A stretch of DNA of 64,000 nucleotides from Natronoarchaeum rubrum. GTDB taxonomy: Archaea; Halobacteriota; Halobacteria; Halobacteriales; Natronoarchaeaceae. The stretch covers positions 1 to 64,000 of the forward strand of contig NZ_JANHDP010000006.1 of the NCBI RefSeq assembly GCF_024494695.1. The letters are read 5' to 3'. Positions 36,845 to 44,853 of this stretch are shown piece after piece; positions within the stretch are counted from its first letter, which is position 1, and every line of letters begins with the position of its first letter. A program made the translations under genes and the position numbers. The notes below the pieces were generated by a model, which did no database searches, was not told the DNA's origin, and was given only the letters and a program-made list of their open reading frames with translations.

Positions 36845-37103
36845 ACTTGGACTCCCGAATCGGCGGCCTATGTACCTGCCGAAATTTCGAGCGAGAAAGG
36901 CAGCGGTTTCGGTCGAGGCTACCGTTCGCTCCTCCGCCAGCAACGACGCGAACACTACGCCCGAAGGGCGAGCGGTCGTCCGGTCGCGAGGGCTTCGAGC
37001 GTAGTAGTCGCCGCACGAGCAACAGCGAACGCCGGTCCAACAACACTCCATCCTAGCCGGTATCACCGGAGGTTTTTACGGGCGGACCGTCGTGCAAGAG
37101 GTG

Positions 37104-38495
37104 ATGGAGAAGGGCGAGGGGGACGCGCCCGACGAGTTCGAGTTCGAGCGCGTCCCCGAGACCGATCAGTCGTTCGAGAACGCGCTGGACAAGGCCCGCG
37201 ACGGCGAGCGGCTGTCGGTCGACGACGCGATCGAACTGCTGACCACCGGCACGGACGACGAGGGGATCGACCAGCAGCGCAAAGAGCGGGTGTTAGAGGC
37301 CGCGGATCGGCGCCGCGCCGAGGTCGTCGGGGAGGAGGTGACGTTCGTCGCGAACCTCAACAACAACGTCACGACGGCCTGTAACGTCGGCTGCAAGTTC
37401 TGCAACTTCAAGGACGCAGCCCAGCGCTTCGAGACAGAGTATGACGGGGAGAATCCGGGCTTCACCAAGACGCCGGACGAGTCCCGCCAGATCGTCGAGG
37501 ACGCCGCCGAGATGGGCATCTACGAGGTCTGCTCGGTCTCGGGGCTCCACCCCGCGTTCGCGCTCGACGACGAGCACCGCGAGATCCTCGAAGCGGCCGA
37601 CAATCCCAAAGAGGTCAACTACCGCCCGCCCGCGGACTACGAGACGAGTCCGGGGACGTACGTCGACCAGATCGCGGCGATGAGCGTCGGCGGCGTCCAC
37701 GTCCACTCGATGACCCCCGAGGAGGCGTACCACGCCAAGCGAGGGACCGACTGGAGCTACGAGGAGGTATTCGAGCGGCTGAAAGACGCCGGCCTCGACA
37801 GCGTTCCGGGCACCGCCGCCGAGATCCTCGTCGAGGAGGTCCGCGACGTGATCTGCCCCGGCAAGATCGGCACCGAGGAGTGGATGGACGCGATGGAGGC
37901 CGCCGCGAACGTCGGGCTGGACCTCACGTCGACGATCATGTACGGTCACGTCGAGAACGAGGCCCACCGTGCGCTCCACCTGCAGCGGATCCGCGAACTG
38001 CAGGACCGGACGGGCGCGATCACGGAGTTCGTCCCCCTCTCGTTTATCCACCAGAACACGCCGCTGTACGAGCAGGGACTGGTGGAGGGCGGCGCGTCGC
38101 GCGACGAGGACGAACTGATGGTGGCAGTCGGCCGGCTCTTCTTAGACAACGTCGAGCACGTCCAGTCGTCGTGGGTGAAGTACGGCGACGAACACGGGCT
38201 GAAGCTGCTCTCGTGTGGCGCCGACGACTTCATGGGGACGATCCTCTCCGAGGAGATCACCAAGCGCGCCGGCGGCGACTACGGCGAGGTCCGGACGTTC
38301 GAGCAGTACGTCGACATGATCACGTCGATCGGTCGGGTGCCCGTCGAACGCTCGACCGACTACCGGCAGCGGCGCCGGATTGATCCAGAGGACCCGCCGT
38401 TCGGGCCAACACTCGGTCCGCGCGCGGACGGGACGCCGCTGTTCGAGCGGACGCAGCGGAACAGCGACGGCGATCCGATCAACGCCGACGACTGA
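37104..38495 (+). CDS. cofH: F420 deazaflavin synthase subunit CofH
   Basis: This 463-aa radical-SAM protein couples tyrosine to the amino-ribityl-uracil precursor in F420 synthesis. Its cluster motif is CNVGCKFCNF (about 93-102), and SGLHPAFALDDEH and PLSFIHQNTPLYE are further CofH marks. The ATG at 37104 follows a T-rich box A (TTTTTA at 37072-37077) by about 26 bases, suggesting leaderless transcription; a GTG at 37092 would also stay in frame. The N-terminal 65 residues are helical and partly halophile-specific. Its partner cofG lies 4.5 kb away on the other strand. Confidence 0.93.
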   Translation: MEKGEGDAPDEFEFERVPETDQSFENALDKARDGERLSVDDAIELLTTGTDDEGIDQQRKERVLEAADRRRAEVVGEEVTFVANLNNNVTTACNVGCKFCNFKDAAQRFETEYDGENPGFTKTPDESRQIVEDAAEMGIYEVCSVSGLHPAFALDDEHREILEAADNPKEVNYRPPADYETSPGTYVDQIAAMSVGGVHVHSMTPEEAYHAKRGTDWSYEEVFERLKDAGLDSVPGTAAEILVEEVRDVICPGKIGTEEWMDAMEAAANVGLDLTSTIMYGHVENEAHRALHLQRIRELQDRTGAITEFVPLSFIHQNTPLYEQGLVEGGASRDEDELMVAVGRLFLDNVEHVQSSWVKYGDEHGLKLLSCGADDFMGTILSEEITKRAGGDYGEVRTFEQYVDMITSIGRVPVERSTDYRQRRRIDPEDPPFGPTLGPRADGTPLFERTQRNSDGDPINADD

Positions 38496-38563: not shown

Positions 38564-38869
38564 TTAGAAACCGAAGTCGAACTCCCACTCGTTCTCGGCT
38601 TCGGCCTCGCCGTACTGCACGTTCGTGTTACTCTGTTCGCTCTCCTGTTCGGCCTCAGTCTCACCGCTGACGATACCTACCGCGATGGCGTCGTCCTGAT
38701 CGTTGTCGTTCACCTGAACGGCGTCCTGGTCCTGATCAACGTCGGCATCGGCGTCCTGGTCCCACCAGTCGTCGTCGGAGTCGGAGGCGGCCACGGGCGA
38801 TGCCGTTGCCCCGAGCACGAGCGTTCCCAGCAGTGATACCGCGATCAATATCCGGAGTGCCTTTTTCAT
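38564..38869 (-). CDS. Small secreted Gln/Asn-rich protein with one QxNxNxQ repeat
   Basis: This 101-aa protein has a signal peptide (MKKALRILIAVSLLGTLVLGATASPVAAS, cleavage likely near residue 28) and a mature part containing one copy of the repeat also found five times in the protein at 40226-42052: DAVQVNDNDQDDAIAVGIV...QSNTNVQYGEAEAEN. It lacks an anchor or PGF tail, so it should be free outside the cell. An A6 tract on the + strand between it and cofH suits termination of its transcript. It may be a soluble subunit or minor component of the surface structure formed by the larger protein. Function inferred only from repeat similarity. Confidence 0.72.
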   Translation of the reverse strand: MKKALRILIAVSLLGTLVLGATASPVAASDSDDDWWDQDADADVDQDQDAVQVNDNDQDDAIAVGIVSGETEAEQESEQSNTNVQYGEAEAENEWEFDFGF

Positions 38870-39533
38870 CGGTTGTCACGGGTGCCACGTCGCACCCGGC
38901 ATCCGCTACCACGAAACTGTTGATAAACCACTTCGATCGTTTTACTGCCGTATCAGGCCCTATACGTGGAGGAGAGCTGATGATTGCCGTCCACCGCAGA
39001 GAAGATCGATGATATACGTGAACGTGACAGTGCTAATTTCGCAGTTCACTATATAATACGCTAATACTCCAGTGAGCACCGGCCTCTGCAGTCCCGCAAA
39101 ATCAGGGGTCGTGAATCGGGTCCCGGTCGATCGTTCCCGGTAACGTCTGCTGAGTGGCCGATACTTGCGTTTTCAAAAGTCGCCTTCCCGAATTTGAGCG
39201 GATCATTCTGGTAGTTCTCGCTCGGCGATTCGTGTCGGAACTTCGCCCGTGTAGCGAAGTGCAGAATGTCGTGGTTAGCACTACGCAACCCAAATATCCT
39301 TGAAATGCCGCTTGAAATAACTCTCGATCGAGAGTCCGCCTCGTCGCGTGCGACGGTGAGCGGACGACACGCGAATCAGCTGCGCACCCGCGGGTGAAGT
39401 CTCGAATCTTCGTTTGCCGTCACCACCGTTCGTCGATCATCGATAGACGGTGTAGTTTCGGTCAGACCGAAAGAAGATCGAGGGGGCGGCTGTGAGTGGT
39501 ACAACGGGGCGGTCGCACGCCGCTGGTTGCCGA
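38870..39533. other. Large intergenic region, 664 bases, AT-richer
   Basis: No supported gene is seen. The 75-residue reverse ORF at 39061-39288 and its opposite-strand shadow show no family resemblance. A perfect 14-base palindrome CTCTCGATCGAGAG lies at 39321-39334, and small near-palindromes follow (GTCGCGTGCGAC, ACCCGCGGGT). The right part of the gap may be the promoter region of the genes at 38869 (left) and 39534 (right). Such a long, AT-richer gap in this gene-dense window suggests insertion or decayed sequence. Confidence 0.5.
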
Positions 39534-39977
39534 TTACGAGTCGGTGGAGGTGCTGACGTTCACCTCGGACGTCGACTCGGCAGTGTTGGTCTGGACGACA
39601 GTCTCGGAATCCCCGCTGACGGAACTCGACGTTGATTGGGTCGTCTGGCTGGTACTCGTCTCGCTTTCGACGGTGGTCTCCTGATCGACGATCGTGCCGT
39701 CGTCGACGGTGACGGTCTGGTTGACGCTGGTTCCGTCATCCAGCGAGAACGTTTGACTGACGGTGGAGTCGTCCTCAACGGCGATTTGCCGATCGACGAC
39801 CGTCTCGCCGTCGACGGTGACCGTGTAGTTGACAGTGGTTTCGCTCTCGGAGCTGGAGCCTCGGTCGTCGTCGGTATCGTCGAAGAACGCTCCCCCAACG
39901 ACGGTCGTCGTAACGACCGCGAGACCAGCGAGCAGTACCGCCGTGATCAGGAGGAGTGGTCCGTCTCGTACGTTCAT
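39534..39977 (-). CDS. Ser/Thr-rich membrane-tethered protein with short beta repeats
   Basis: This 147-aa protein has an N-terminal membrane segment (about 7-28) and no cleavage site or lipobox, so it is likely an exported protein held by its signal anchor. Residues about 47-105 are four to five degenerate units of about 14 residues with a TVTVDGETVVDRQ / TVTVDDGTIVDQE pattern, each a likely beta-strand pair. The last 50 residues are almost only Ser, Thr, Val, Glu and Asp, a likely glycosylated stalk. It lies between the two QN-repeat genes on the same strand. No enzymatic domain was recognised. Confidence 0.6.
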   Translation of the reverse strand: MNVRDGPLLLITAVLLAGLAVVTTTVVGGAFFDDTDDDRGSSSESETTVNYTVTVDGETVVDRQIAVEDDSTVSQTFSLDDGTSVNQTVTVDDGTIVDQETTVESETSTSQTTQSTSSSVSGDSETVVQTNTAESTSEVNVSTSTDS

Positions 39978-40194
39978 GTTCGGGTCGGACGATCACTGAG
40001 CCGCGTAAAAATCGGTGCGATCGTTTCAGTGTCATCGGAGACACCTGAACGAAACCCGGCTACGGCAGTCGACTACAAGCCAGTCTGAAGGCCGAAGATA
40101 CCAGACGGTATACGAACTGTTCACTGATGTAGTCGTATTGGATTGCAAGAACGGTGCCGATCGGCACAGCGCCGCCGCTCCCGGGACGATCAGT

Positions 40195-40200
40195 AAAAAA
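40195..40200 (-). terminator. U-tract terminator candidate for the QN-repeat gene
   Basis: An A6 run on the + strand lies 25 bases past the stop of the QN-repeat gene and gives a U6 tract in its transcript. Confidence 0.4.
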
Positions 40201-40225
40201 TCGTGGAAGTGGCTAGTTCGAGCGT

Positions 40226-42052
40226 CTATTCGCGTCGCAGTGCGAGCAGCGCTGCACCGAGCAGCGAGACAGCCGTCACCCCGACACCGAAGCCAGGGAG
40301 CGAGCTATCGCCCGAGTTCTCGTCGGAGTCGTCGGTATCCTGCTCGTTAGTGGAACTACCGTCGGCGTCCTGTTCGTCGCTGGAACTATCGTCGTCGCCC
40401 GTATCGCTGCTCCCGGTGGAGTCTTCCTCGTTCTCCGAGGAATCCTCCTTGTCGTCGCCCGCGTCGCTGTTCTCCGTGGAGTCCTCCGTCTCGCTGTCCG
40501 AGGAACTCTCCTCGTCGCTCTGTTGTTCGGACTGATCGTCGCCGCCCGAACTTGCTTCGTTGGTGGCCTCGGCGATCCCTTCTTGGATGTTTTCGTTGTA
40601 CTGCTGGCTCGTCTGGAACGCGTTGGACTCGCCGTCGTTCGTGGCGTACGCGACCGCCGCGCTCTGGTGGTTGAAGTTCAGCTGGTCGATCAGCTGGGTC
40701 TGCTCGATCTCCGCCCAGGCGCTCTGGTCGACGGTCTCGTCGCCGGCGTCGAGCTGGATCGCCCAGCCGGGACGCTCGGACGTCTCGGCGCCCGAGATGA
40801 TCAGCGAGGTGGTCCGTGAGTGGAGGTTCGCGGCCTCGACCTCGGCGGCCTGCACGTTCACGTTCTGCTGGAAGCTACTCTGGAAGGCCTGCGCGCTGCT
40901 GTTCTCGATCGCGATCGCGAGCGCGAGGTTCTGGTTGTTGATGTTGCGCTGCGTGACGTCCTGGTGCTGCTTGATCTTCGCGACCGACTCCTGGGTCGTC
41001 AGAGTCGTCCCGCCGCTGTTCTGCTCGACGCTCTCCGTAGACGTGCCGGACGCGTTGGCCGCCTCGCCCTCCGAGCCGTTCTCGGTAGCGTTCGCGCTTC
41101 CGTCGTCAGAGACGTTCGGCGCGGCCGCGGCCATCGACATGCCGGAGATGCCGAGGATGCCGGTCTGCACGTTGGTTGCCGAGCTGAAGGCGACCTGGCT
41201 GTTGGAGTTGTACTGGTAACTCTTCTGGACCGCCAGCGCCTCGCTGTTTTCGCCCACGGCGATGGCGACCGCCAGACCTTGGATGTTGACGTTCACCTGC
41301 GTGACGTCCTGTTCCTGTTCGACGTCGGAATCGGCTTCCTGCTCACCGTCGCCGCCGCCCGCGTCGACATTAGTCGCGTCTGCCTCCGCGTACTGCGTGT
41401 TGGAGTTTCGCTGCTCGGCTTCCTGGTAGGCCGTCGCGGTGCTGTTGTCGACCGCGAGCGCGATCGCGGCACTCTGGTTGTTGAAGTTCAGCTGGTCGAC
41501 CTCCTGCGACTGGATGACCTCGGCTTCGGAGTACTGCGAGCTCTGGTCCTCGTCGTCGTCGGAGCCGTCCTCGACGACCATCCCGGAGAAGCCGCCGGAC
41601 GCGTTCTCTCCGCCCGCGAAGATGACGTTGACCTGCTCGACGTTACTGAGCGAGGTCGTCTCGACGACCTCGTTGCTCGCTTCGGCGACGGCGATCTGCC
41701 GATTGTCGTTCGCCTGTTCGTTCTGCTGGATGGCGTTGGCCTGGCCGCCGTTGATCGAGATCGCGACGGCCTGCCCCTGCTGGTTGACGTTCAACTGATC
41801 GACGTCCTGATACTGAACGACGGTCGAGTCTGCCACCTGCGCACCGTCGCCGTTTTTGAACTCGTCGACCCACTGGTCGAGGTCCTCCGAGGCAGTGTCG
41901 GCGCCGAACACCAGATAGACCGACTGTTCGGCGTCCGTTTGTTCGTCTTCGCCACCGATCGACGCGTCGCCGAGTGCGACCCCGCTCGTTGCGGTCGCGA
42001 GCAGGACGAGCCCGACGAGCAACACGTTCATTGCGTTCGATTTCCGTATCAT
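40226..42052 (-). CDS. PGF-CTERM surface protein with five QxNxNxQ (curli-like) repeats
   Basis: This 608-aa protein has a signal peptide (about 1-28) and a PGF-CTERM tail (SLPGFGVG at 584-591, hydrophobic helix, RRE), so it is probably processed by archaeosortase A and lipid-anchored. Five repeats of about 50 residues lie at roughly 78-127, 178-228, 246-294, 359-409 and 448-499. Each has two motifs: a first Q-x-N-x-N-x-Q then alternating small/hydrophobic residues (AxAxA), and a second Q-x-N-x-N-x-Q, then AxAxxN. This alternation of Gln, Asn and Ala is the pattern of beta-solenoid or amyloid repeats such as CsgA. A Ser/Asp-rich stalk (500-580) precedes the anchor. Several NxS/T sequons occur. 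Confidence 0.78.
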   Translation of the reverse strand: MIRKSNAMNVLLVGLVLLATATSGVALGDASIGGEDEQTDAEQSVYLVFGADTASEDLDQWVDEFKNGDGAQVADSTVVQYQDVDQLNVNQQGQAVAISINGGQANAIQQNEQANDNRQIAVAEASNEVVETTSLSNVEQVNVIFAGGENASGGFSGMVVEDGSDDDEDQSSQYSEAEVIQSQEVDQLNFNNQSAAIALAVDNSTATAYQEAEQRNSNTQYAEADATNVDAGGGDGEQEADSDVEQEQDVTQVNVNIQGLAVAIAVGENSEALAVQKSYQYNSNSQVAFSSATNVQTGILGISGMSMAAAAPNVSDDGSANATENGSEGEAANASGTSTESVEQNSGGTTLTTQESVAKIKQHQDVTQRNINNQNLALAIAIENSSAQAFQSSFQQNVNVQAAEVEAANLHSRTTSLIISGAETSERPGWAIQLDAGDETVDQSAWAEIEQTQLIDQLNFNHQSAAVAYATNDGESNAFQTSQQYNENIQEGIAEATNEASSGGDDQSEQQSDEESSSDSETEDSTENSDAGDDKEDSSENEEDSTGSSDTGDDDSSSDEQDADGSSTNEQDTDDSDENSGDSSLPGFGVGVTAVSLLGAALLALRRE

Positions 42053-42333: not shown

Positions 42334-42927
42334 ATGTCTCACGACCTGCTCATGATCGTCGGCGACTACGTGGAAGACTGGGAAGTGATCGTTCCGTATC
42401 AGGCGCTGCAGGCGGTCGGCCACGAGGTCGATGCGGTCTGCCCGGACAAGGAAGCGGGCGACACCGTCGCCACGGCAGTCCACGACTTCACGGGTGAACA
42501 AACCTACAGCGAGAAGCCGGGCCACACGTTCGAGCTGTCGGCGACGTTCGACGACGTCGACGCCGAATCGTACGACGGCCTGGTGATTCCCGGCGGGCGC
42601 GCGCCGGAGTACCTGCGCACGTACGACGAGGTGATCGAGTGCGTGCAGCACTTCTTCGAGGAGGACAAGCCCGTCGCGGCGCTCTGTCACGCGCCCCAGT
42701 TGCTCAACGCGGCCGGGGTGCTGGAGGGCCGGGCGCTGACGTCGTATCCCGCAGTGAGAGCCGAAGTCGAGTCCGGCGGCGGCGAGTGGCACGACGGCGT
42801 CACGGTCGACGGGAACCTCGTCACCGGCCGGGTGTTCACCGACCACGTCGAGTGGATCTCGGAGTTCCTCGACGTGCTCGGAACGGACGTCCAGCACGGC
42901 GAGCCGATGCCAGCCAGCGACGACTGA
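42334..42927 (+). CDS. DJ-1/PfpI family protein
   Basis: This 197-aa protein has the PfpI/DJ-1 fold. The nucleophile Cys is in [10 protein letters not shown] (about residue 117), the acid loop is [13 protein letters not shown] (about 84-96), and the N-terminal strand [13 protein letters not shown] is canonical. The length matches bacterial PfpI-like proteases and glyoxalases. Function is probably protein or metabolite repair. It is divergent from the QN-repeat gene and convergent with cofG; no operon partner. Confidence 0.88.
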
Positions 42928-42990: not shown

Positions 42991-44145
42991 TCAGTCGTCC
43001 GCCGGAACCGGCTCGCCGGCCAGCACGCCGCGGTACCGCTCACCGGCGTCGTCGCGTGCCGCGATGGCGTCCCGAATCGTCGGCGAGAGCCAGTCGTCGC
43101 CGGGCGCCGGTTCGCCCGCGAAGGCGTCGGTCCGTAGATTTTCGGGAAGGAATCGCTCGTACACCGGCAGGCGCTCGCGGAGCGGGACGTCGCCGTGGTC
43201 GGCGACGGCTTCCAGTTCGCGCAGCGCGGGCCACTCGTAGTCGGGGTTGATGTAGTCGTCGGTGATCGGCGAGACGCCGCCCAGATCGTCGATCCCGCAG
43301 TCGACCAGTTCGCGTGCCGGCGCGAGGTTCGGCGGCACCTGCACCGAGACCTCCTCGGGGAGCGCCGCTCGGGCCATCGCGACGACCCGGCGCATCGCGT
43401 CGAGCCCCGGAGATCCGCCGCTCCAGCGCTCGTTCTCGACGACGGGCTGGACGATCACCTCCTGAATATGCCCGTAGCGCTCGTGCATGTCGCGAATCGC
43501 CAGCAGGCTCTCGGCCCGATCTCGCCAGTCCTCGCCGAGGCCGACGAGAATCCCCGTCGTAAAGGGGACCGACAGTTCGCCGGCGTTCCGGATCGTGTTG
43601 AGCCGCTGGCCAGGGTTCTTCCGGCGCCGCCCGGCGTGGGCGTCGACGTCCGCGGTGGTCTCCAGCATCACGCCCATGCTGGCGTTGGCGTCCGCCACGG
43701 TTTCCATCTGCTCGTAGGTCTGGTCGCCGGGATTGCTGTGTGGCAGCAGCCCCTCGTCGAGGGCGATCTCGCAAACCTCGCGGAGATACTCGTGGATCGA
43801 GTCGTGGCCCCACTCGTCCAACTGGGCGTGGATCCGTTCGTAGCGGTCGTCCGGGTCGTCACCGAAGGTAAACAGCGCTTCCGTACAGCCCGCGTCGGCG
43901 CCCATCCTGAGCGTCTCGCGGACTTCGTCGGTGCTCATCAGCGTGGCCTCGCCCGGCGGGTCGAAGTAGGTGCAGTAGGTGCAGGTGTACCGGCACGCGG
44001 TCGTCAGCGGGACGAACACGTTGCGCGCGAAGGACAGTTCTGGGGCCGGATCGACGTCGGCGGGCCCGACGTCGAGCAGCGACGCCACGTCAGACTCGTC
44101 GATCGTCACGTCGACGCCGTACTCGTCGGCCCCCGGAATCATCAT
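42991..44145 (-). CDS. cofG: F420 deazaflavin synthase subunit CofG
   Basis: This 384-aa radical-SAM protein is the second subunit of 7,8-didemethyl-8-hydroxy-5-deazariboflavin synthase. The cluster is CRYTCTYCTY (about 52-61). TGILVGLGEDW, VSPITDDYINPDYEWP and PPNLAPARELVDCGIDDLGGV match the family's substrate region. Two adjacent Met codons start it. It lies 87 bases after cofC on the same strand, with cofH on the other strand 4.5 kb away. Confidence 0.93.
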   Translation of the reverse strand: MMIPGADEYGVDVTIDESDVASLLDVGPADVDPAPELSFARNVFVPLTTACRYTCTYCTYFDPPGEATLMSTDEVRETLRMGADAGCTEALFTFGDDPDDRYERIHAQLDEWGHDSIHEYLREVCEIALDEGLLPHSNPGDQTYEQMETVADANASMGVMLETTADVDAHAGRRRKNPGQRLNTIRNAGELSVPFTTGILVGLGEDWRDRAESLLAIRDMHERYGHIQEVIVQPVVENERWSGGSPGLDAMRRVVAMARAALPEEVSVQVPPNLAPARELVDCGIDDLGGVSPITDDYINPDYEWPALRELEAVADHGDVPLRERLPVYERFLPENLRTDAFAGEPAPGDDWLSPTIRDAIAARDDAGERYRGVLAGEPVPADD

Positions 44146-44232: not shown

Positions 44233-44853
44233 TCAGGGCGAGCGCGTCACGTCCGCCCGACCGCCCTCGACGACCAGTTCGAATCCGGCGTCGCGAAGCC
44301 ACGCCGTCGCGCGGCCGTCGCCGTGCAACAGCAACTCGACCAGATCCGCGCGCTCGTCGACGTCGGTCGACAGCCGGTGGGAGTCGGCGACCGCGACGTC
44401 GGCGTCGATTTCCTCGGCGATCCGTCGGTGGTCGCGGTAGGAGAGTCCGTGGTAGTCGACGCGAAACTCGGGGTGGCGGACGACGAGCGCGTTCGTCCCG
44501 CCGCCTCGCCCCGGTACGATCGCCACGTCGCCCTCACTCGCGAACAGACCGGCGAGCGCGTCGTCCGTCGCGAGCGCGAGATCGGCCATCACGACGGCGA
44601 CGGGCGACTCGGGAACAGCGTCCGCGAGAACGTCGTTGACCGCGGGCGTCAGCGCCCGATCGTCGACCCGGACCGGCGCGTCGACGTCGATCGGCGCCGT
44701 CGAGAGCACCGTCGGCTCGCCGCCGGCCGCGCGGACAGCCGCCAGCACGTCGGCGAGCATCGCGCGGGCCAGCGCCGAGCGCTCGCGCTCGTCGAGCAGG
44801 TCGGCGAGGCGAGTCTTCGGGCGCTCGGCGTCGAACGGGACGAGGACGCGCAT
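44233..44853 (-). CDS. cofC: 2-phospho-L-lactate (or PEP) guanylyltransferase CofC
   Basis: This 206-aa nucleotidyltransferase activates phospholactate or phosphoenolpyruvate with GTP in F420 assembly. It starts MRVLVPFDAERPKTRLADLL, the glycine-poor P-loop-like N-terminus of the family, and contains VVMADLALATDDAL and IVPGRGGGTNALVVRHP (about 128-144), the GTP and metal site. It is cytoplasmic and forms a probable operon with cofG. Substrate choice cannot be told from motifs alone. Confidence 0.9.
   Translation of the reverse strand: MRVLVPFDAERPKTRLADLLDERERSALARAMLADVLAAVRAAGGEPTVLSTAPIDVDAPVRVDDRALTPAVNDVLADAVPESPVAVVMADLALATDDALAGLFASEGDVAIVPGRGGGTNALVVRHPEFRVDYHGLSYRDHRRIAEEIDADVAVADSHRLSTDVDERADLVELLLHGDGRATAWLRDAGFELVVEGGRADVTRSP

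Follow-up and report, generated by a model that had tools for sequence, protein, structure and literature searches.

Bacteria are well known to make functional amyloids, and those of archaea are, to our knowledge, known chiefly from methanogen sheaths. In a published account of curli, the imperfect repeats are described in the relevant passage as strand-arc-strand units with Gln and Asn facing inward and variable outward residues (PMC10192328), and the passage on enterobacterial CsgA gives it five such repeats (PMC12822426). The curli model of a 2012 survey hit "a single archaeal protein" with curli-like repeats, unnamed in that passage (PMC3521004), and an excerpt on Haloferax volcanii reports biofilms that stain with amyloid dyes, proposing HVO_1403 as a possible determinant while leaving the fibre protein unproven (PMC4180959). 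Here we describe a locus on contig NZ_JANHDP010000006.1 of the haloarchaeon Natronoarchaeum rubrum, within an analysed stretch of 64,000 nucleotides (hereafter the window), that encodes a large protein with five 50-residue repeats and a small protein with one. On balance we favor the reading that the two proteins form a two-part haloarchaeal extracellular beta-stack, that is, an amyloid-like fibre system working like curli.

An earlier note, made from the window's letters, had described three exported proteins on one strand, the largest with five repeats of about 50 residues bearing two QxNxNxQ motifs each and the smallest with one repeat of the same type, and all of this was borne out. The open reading frame (ORF) list and translations place three ORFs on the minus strand (Table 1), each with an N-terminal hydrophobic segment pointing to export. 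We built a repeat profile from homologs, leaving out the window protein and its three closest relatives (P0001–P0004); in these homologs the repeats had been located with a window-derived seed. It matched the large protein as five full repeats (54.3–62.7 bits; 500 shuffles peaked at 9.5 bits) and the small protein as one repeat over all 50 positions (49.0 bits; 2,000 shuffles peaked at 12.2). There are ten copies of the QxNxNxQ motif in the large protein and two in the small one.

The large family comprises 107 members including the window's, gathered by scoring only the 7,997 candidates with the most shared words. Across its 534 repeats, 23 alternating positions follow an inward pattern, V.Q.Q.V.Q.N.N.Q..A.A.A / A.A.Q.S.Q.N.N.Q.A.A.A.N, and carry 2.4–4.3 bits per column, against 0.75–3.0 bits, mostly below 2, in the other 27. 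Columns 32, 36 and 42 (Q) and 50 (N) are conserved in about 100% of repeats and columns 38 and 40 (N) in about 99%; the least conserved inward columns are 34 (S/T/A) and 44 (G/A). Of the 27 others, less freedom is seen at column 26 (S/G), in the turn, and at columns 12, 19 and 21, which are hydrophobic. Repeats inside one protein are 83% identical at inward and 17% at outward positions (mean of 105 proteins), as would be expected if the repeats formed a parallel in-register beta stack with side-chain ladders. The repeat number is exactly five in 105 of the 107 members, with six in one and three in another. Between species, same-numbered repeats share 0.54–0.62 identity versus 0.46 for different repeats, suggesting that the five-repeat order is old.

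The small protein repeats this pattern. Set against the repeat consensus, the window's small protein agrees at 20 of 23 inward and 6 of 27 outward residues. A homolog search with it alone found none, and a profile of 11 small proteins from related loci retrieved 41 small proteins from the protein database (7,991 candidates scored). With the window's included, 20 of these 42 carry a full-length repeat, agreeing with the consensus at 0.77 of inward and 0.22 of outward positions. Thirteen of the 42 (e.g. P0135–P0137, P0140–P0144) match the repeat from position 19 on only, and in several of them a QxQ.VxQxN stretch can be seen by eye after the partial repeat; such proteins may hold a permuted arch. 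Two small repeat proteins, P0112 and P0130, are named acetylglutamate kinase and toxin transporter, names that misfit and look wrong.

We then asked how the two genes are distributed. The large gene was present in 59 of 292 haloarchaeal genomes and in 80 of 391 in a larger sample; among the 292, full-length matches all had E≤4e-133, and the match that came next had E = 1e-25 and covered tandem small genes. The large- and small-gene searches each covered 292 genomes, drawn in the same way, and we treat the two sets as identical. With the small-protein profile, seeded from genes neighbouring large genes, 61 of the 292 matched at E≤1e-6, namely all 59 with the large gene and, among the 233 without it, two marginal cases (E = 5e-7 and 8e-7). 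Because repeats within the large gene can themselves match the small profile, separate short frames were counted, giving a separate small gene in at least 53 of the 59 large-gene genomes among the matches listed, which extend to about E = 2e-10; G039, G047, G159, G210, G230 and G262 showed none among those matches. A Fisher test of the pairing gave p = 9e-49, with shared ancestry ignored. The co-occurrence that the earlier note had proposed to look for was found, often with the genes close together. Taking one large copy per genome (the copy near a small gene preferred) with its closest small hit, or two such hits for G003, the small gene lies upstream and divergent, 0.57–2.27 kb from the large gene, in 46 of the 53 genomes. 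The named loci show the same tendency less clearly: a small gene stands upstream of the large gene in 25 of 44 and downstream only in one more; the 44 small hits there comprise 39 upstream divergent, two upstream on the same strand and three downstream.

Among the 22 largest neighbor clusters listed (BLAST), the large gene occurred in 47 of 47 sources, followed by a 742-residue protein (19 sources), a 464-residue protein (15) and the small repeat genes (13, with a second cluster of 4). Of these listed clusters, only that of the large gene includes the window, and the other neighbors were taken as ordinary chromosomal genes. In a single-pattern scan, 46 of 51 stretches were relatives, all bearing haloarchaeal titles. 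Large-protein matches spanning most of the protein among the 391 genomes reached at most 46% identity, with a best partial match of 51%, so that no Natronoarchaeum genome for a comparison of the three-gene order turned up there; the closest other homolog is 99% identical and is labelled Natronoarchaeum rubrum. In Haladaptatus salinisoli (G003) we found three full large copies and eight small-type matches beginning at the profile's first positions. On a chromosome of this species, five tandem small ORFs, each with a repeat match, lie at L045:7896–9852, and the five-repeat gene is absent from the fetched L045 stretch that holds them.

Structure prediction agrees with a beta fold. AlphaFold2 gave all-beta repeats with two long strands each, at a predicted local distance difference test score (pLDDT) of 94–98 in repeat interiors. 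The best three of seven Foldseek matches against the PDB, none of the three significant, were functional amyloids (CsgA 8c50, FapC 9u4u and FapC 9nqd). A sequence search for a solved structure of the proteins found none.

Anchor and export motifs vary within the family. The PGF-CTERM anchor reported for the window's large protein exceeded both family cut-offs (PF18204, 23.4 bits against 18.8, E = 5.6e-5; TIGR04126 of NCBIfam, 26.3 bits against 24.5, E = 4.2e-6), and proteins of this kind are substrates of archaeosortase A. A PGF-CTERM-like tail is found in just 16 of the 107 members, the window's among them, so the anchor is not general to the family. It was the sole recurring Pfam family, in 6 of 17 large members, with 16 others matching one member each at E≥0.019. 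The roles of free subunit and surface-bound nucleator suggested earlier by analogy stay unproven, since 91 of the 107 members have no anchor. A twin-arginine motif lies close to the annotated start in 17 of the 107; the remaining members presumably use Sec.

In the mechanism we propose, each 50-residue repeat would form two arms of some 24 residues in a strand-turn-strand unit, the strands being as predicted, and every second residue would face the core of an arch; the alternation is observed and the arch geometry inferred. Repeats would stack in register so that identical Gln and Asn side chains form ladders. Both proteins would leave through general export, and assembly would take place beyond the single membrane with no CsgG-like pore involved. 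Haloarchaea have one membrane, so a second pore would not be needed. The large protein would provide a ready-made five-arch stack, tethered to the surface by PGF-CTERM in some lineages, this one included, and the small proteins, with one arch and near-identical inward residues, would add onto its open ends. The seed or anchor would then be the large protein, and the elongating subunit the small proteins; stacking between molecules and fibre formation are what we infer. A more specific version is tentative, and we hold it a little less firmly than the general reading: a two-gene archaeal amyloid with no dedicated pore or chaperone, independent of curli and Fap, with an arch about three times the width of curlin's, a five-arch seed, one-arch subunits and a near-identical inward ladder.

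Several observations weigh against this fibre system. On the side of structure, the functional-amyloid matches have Foldseek E values of 0.28, 0.83 and 1.1, and VIA-align scored CsgA (Z = 3.5) no better than an unrelated SufB chain (Z = 3.7). AlphaFold2 confidence was low in the linkers, N-terminus and tail of the large protein, and the small protein modelled alone (pLDDT 56) was too weak for a fold search. The predicted model leaves arch and hairpin undistinguished, and the conservation of outward columns 19 and 21, hydrophobic and hardly ever charged, is unexplained by a simple hydrophilic fibre surface. On the side of the genes, 22 of the 42 small proteins have a partial match and no full-length repeat, and 18 of the 44 named loci lack a small gene in the stretch retrieved, four of these loci ending within about 2 kb upstream of the large gene. 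In the window itself the large and small genes are co-directional with the middle gene between them, as opposed to the divergent arrangement elsewhere.

Two alternatives keep the repeat architecture and assign the proteins other roles. The large protein could itself be the fibre subunit, with five arches like CsgA, and the small protein a nucleator, cap or length regulator. The near-fixed number of five repeats, the many members with no PGF-CTERM-like tail and the near-constant partnership with small genes all fit this arrangement. We nonetheless consider it unlikely, as small genes can outnumber large ones, as in G003, where the small protein looks more like the bulk subunit, and as the anchor in the window sits on the large protein. 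We also regard as improbable a non-polymerising surface adhesin or stalk, in which the large protein would sit as a monomeric beta-solenoid on the cell surface or surface layer, with the small protein as a soluble end cap. Repeats confidently predicted within one chain, the anchor in a minority of members and the presence of the ice-binding protein 9lhn among the seven weak Foldseek matches (E = 8.7) speak for it; against it, the inward pattern hardly changes among the repeats or in the small protein, which makes the ends look open and not capped, and family searches (Pfam, NCBIfam) recognised no cap domain. That Q/N/A-rich secreted proteins only look alike, as their Gln+Asn content (18% of the large and 13% of the small protein) might suggest, is scarcely credible given the small protein's score against its shuffles, the inward/outward split and the conserved gene pairing.

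The fibre system we favor was described in the earlier note as curli-like. That description survives the refuting conditions set there, the repeats being predicted all-beta, the large and small genes co-occurring and no enzyme family matching either protein over a cut-off, and it fails as a statement of sequence identity. At E≤1, the Pfam curlin repeat (PF07012) matched neither the window proteins nor 17 large-family members, contrary to what a curlin would show, and it was not among the best 25 of the 45 families matched by 36 small proteins. Paired N-$-psi-$-psi-$-Q motifs number zero in the window's large and small proteins, against 9 in E. coli CsgA, 4 in CsgB and 17–21 in haloarchaeal curlins; single curlin half-motifs number 7 in the large protein versus 3.7 in shuffles. 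Aligned to curlins with hhalign, the large protein gave a probability of 2 and the small protein one of 60 (E = 8.6e-5), in both cases over the signal-peptide region alone. Five curlins scored -0.0 to -9.4 bits with the repeat profile. With the small-protein profile, the three haloarchaeal curlins scored 4.9–10.8 bits (E = 1.2e-4 to 7e-3 among five sequences), with a bias of 43–54 bits and negative best domains. We therefore rejected curlin membership for both families, there being no PF07012 match, no paired motif and, leaving aside the biased small-profile score on haloarchaeal curlins, a profile match only in signal peptides. UniRef names two large-family members "Curlin associated repea...", a name unsupported by these tests.

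True curlin-repeat proteins do occur in haloarchaea. Among 19 large-gene genomes, 4 had a PF07012 hit at E≤1 and one exceeded the cut-off, in a different protein; proteins over the cut-off were found in Haloterrigena salina (G007) and in 2 of the 292 genomes. They lie at L047:1078–1701 (G007), L055:1300–2037 (G197) and L056:994–1617 (G207), are 207–245 residues long and carry tandem 19-residue true curlin motifs. All three host genomes have two large-gene matches each. These proteins are a family separate from the large and small repeat proteins. As for the secretion pore, the earlier report of no CsgG-like gene was upheld across relatives: none of 19 exceeded the PF03783 cut-off, with weak hits in 4 of the 19 (best E per genome 0.067–0.46), and in a control set 6 of 14 genomes matched, E. 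coli included, 4 of them over the cut-off.

Other identities fared no better. An enzyme family was rejected for the large and small proteins, as nothing exceeded a Pfam or NCBIfam cut-off; the Pfam matches of small members were weak (best E = 3.6e-4), 12 of 36 being to a transmembrane-domain model, presumably through the signal segment. A viral origin was likewise rejected: neither viral contigs nor phage records contained a relative of the large protein; the best PHROGs E values were 0.0033 for the large, 0.05 for the middle and 0.06 for the small protein. Of 72,556 plasmid records, 9 matched a Haladaptatus homolog used as query, and all 9 are haloarchaeal. A search for near-identical DNA of the window region found none.

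Table 1. Features of the repeat-protein locus in window coordinates
Feature	Position	Strand	Details
Large five-repeat exported protein	40226..42052	-	608 aa
Presumed signal: N-terminal hydrophobic segment, large protein	41972..42052	-	Residues 1-27; putative signal function
Conserved YLVFGA...L segment ahead of repeat 1, large protein	41855..41920	-	Residues 45-66
Repeat 1, large protein	41672..41821	-	Residues 78-127; repeat profile
Repeat 2, large protein	41369..41518	-	Residues 179-228; repeat profile
Repeat 3, large protein	41171..41323	-	Residues 244-294; repeat profile
Repeat 4, large protein	40826..40975	-	Residues 360-409; repeat profile
Repeat 5, large protein	40559..40708	-	Residues 449-498; repeat profile
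PGF-CTERM anchor, large protein	40232..40309	-	Residues 582-607; preceded by acidic low-complexity tail
Ser/Thr-rich protein between large and small genes	39534..39977	-	147 aa; N-terminal hydrophobic segment; membership unsupported
Small exported one-repeat protein	38564..38869	-	101 aa
Single repeat, small protein	38591..38740	-	Residues 44-93; repeat profile

The middle protein, which the earlier note had counted into the cluster as a Ser/Thr-rich tethered protein, is indeed Ser/Thr-rich (35%), and its belonging to the large/small pair is not supported. It holds no repeat (best repeat-profile score -0.5 bits), the fetched loci hold no relative of its gene (best tblastn E = 0.074), and its best family matches were weak, to acyltransferase models (E = 0.0016, 17.6 bits against cut-offs above 200). 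In the large protein, two conserved segments of low model confidence, VYLVFGA before repeat 1 (Table 1) and VNVIFAG after it (residues 137–160), may form a small paired domain. The three-gene cluster is flanked by cofH (37092–38495, plus strand) and a DJ-1/PfpI gene (42334–42927, plus strand), with cofG (42991–44145) and cofC (44233–44853) further out, placing coenzyme F420 synthesis genes on both sides.

Among the matches listed, titles and abstract openings of open-licence literature on archaeal or haloarchaeal amyloid, curli and fibres do not describe the large/small family. Haloferax lies outside the 46 loci found, so the large family gives no answer for the Haloferax biofilm amyloid. If our reading is true, roughly one in five of the haloarchaeal genomes sampled would encode an archaeal fibre open to testing; the system would show how cells with one membrane handle amyloid-like assembly and would supply a wide Gln/Asn-ladder scaffold built for high salt. 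The repeat is predicted to stack like a bacterial biofilm amyloid, yet is unrelated to it in sequence, and may represent archaea's own fibre system.

Among described systems, the locus resembles MspA, the sheath amyloid of Methanospirillum, set beside it here by description, in being archaeal and secreted with imperfect repeats; the passage on MspA gives it two repeats of about 80 residues, a methanogen sheath and a gene outside any operon, unlike the present pair (PMC6242892). The haloarchaeal curlins share haloarchaeal Q/N repeats, a signal-peptide-like start and hosts that have the large gene, and differ in their true curlin repeats over the PF07012 cut-off and in having no QxNxNxQ in L047 and L055. 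Fap (FapC/FapB), compared in sequence through the Pfam and NCBIfam scans alone, has few, fixed repeats with conserved Asn and Gln in a beta-solenoid, as the relevant passage describes it, and FapC provided the second and third Foldseek matches, both non-significant; according to the same passage it has three repeats and a fapABCDEF or fapBCDEF operon, unlike the pair described here (PMC12822426). Curli differs in its repeat of about 23 residues as against 50 here, with arms that from the motifs would be about three times longer here, in the motif N-$-psi-$-psi-$-Q in place of QxNxNxQ, and in its CsgG pore, over the cut-off in none of the 19 relatives here, and the partner here has one repeat. 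Curli CsgA/CsgB is nevertheless like this locus in having two secreted repeat proteins, with five repeats in the large one as in CsgA in the passage cited at the outset, and a CsgA gave the best, albeit non-significant, Foldseek match.

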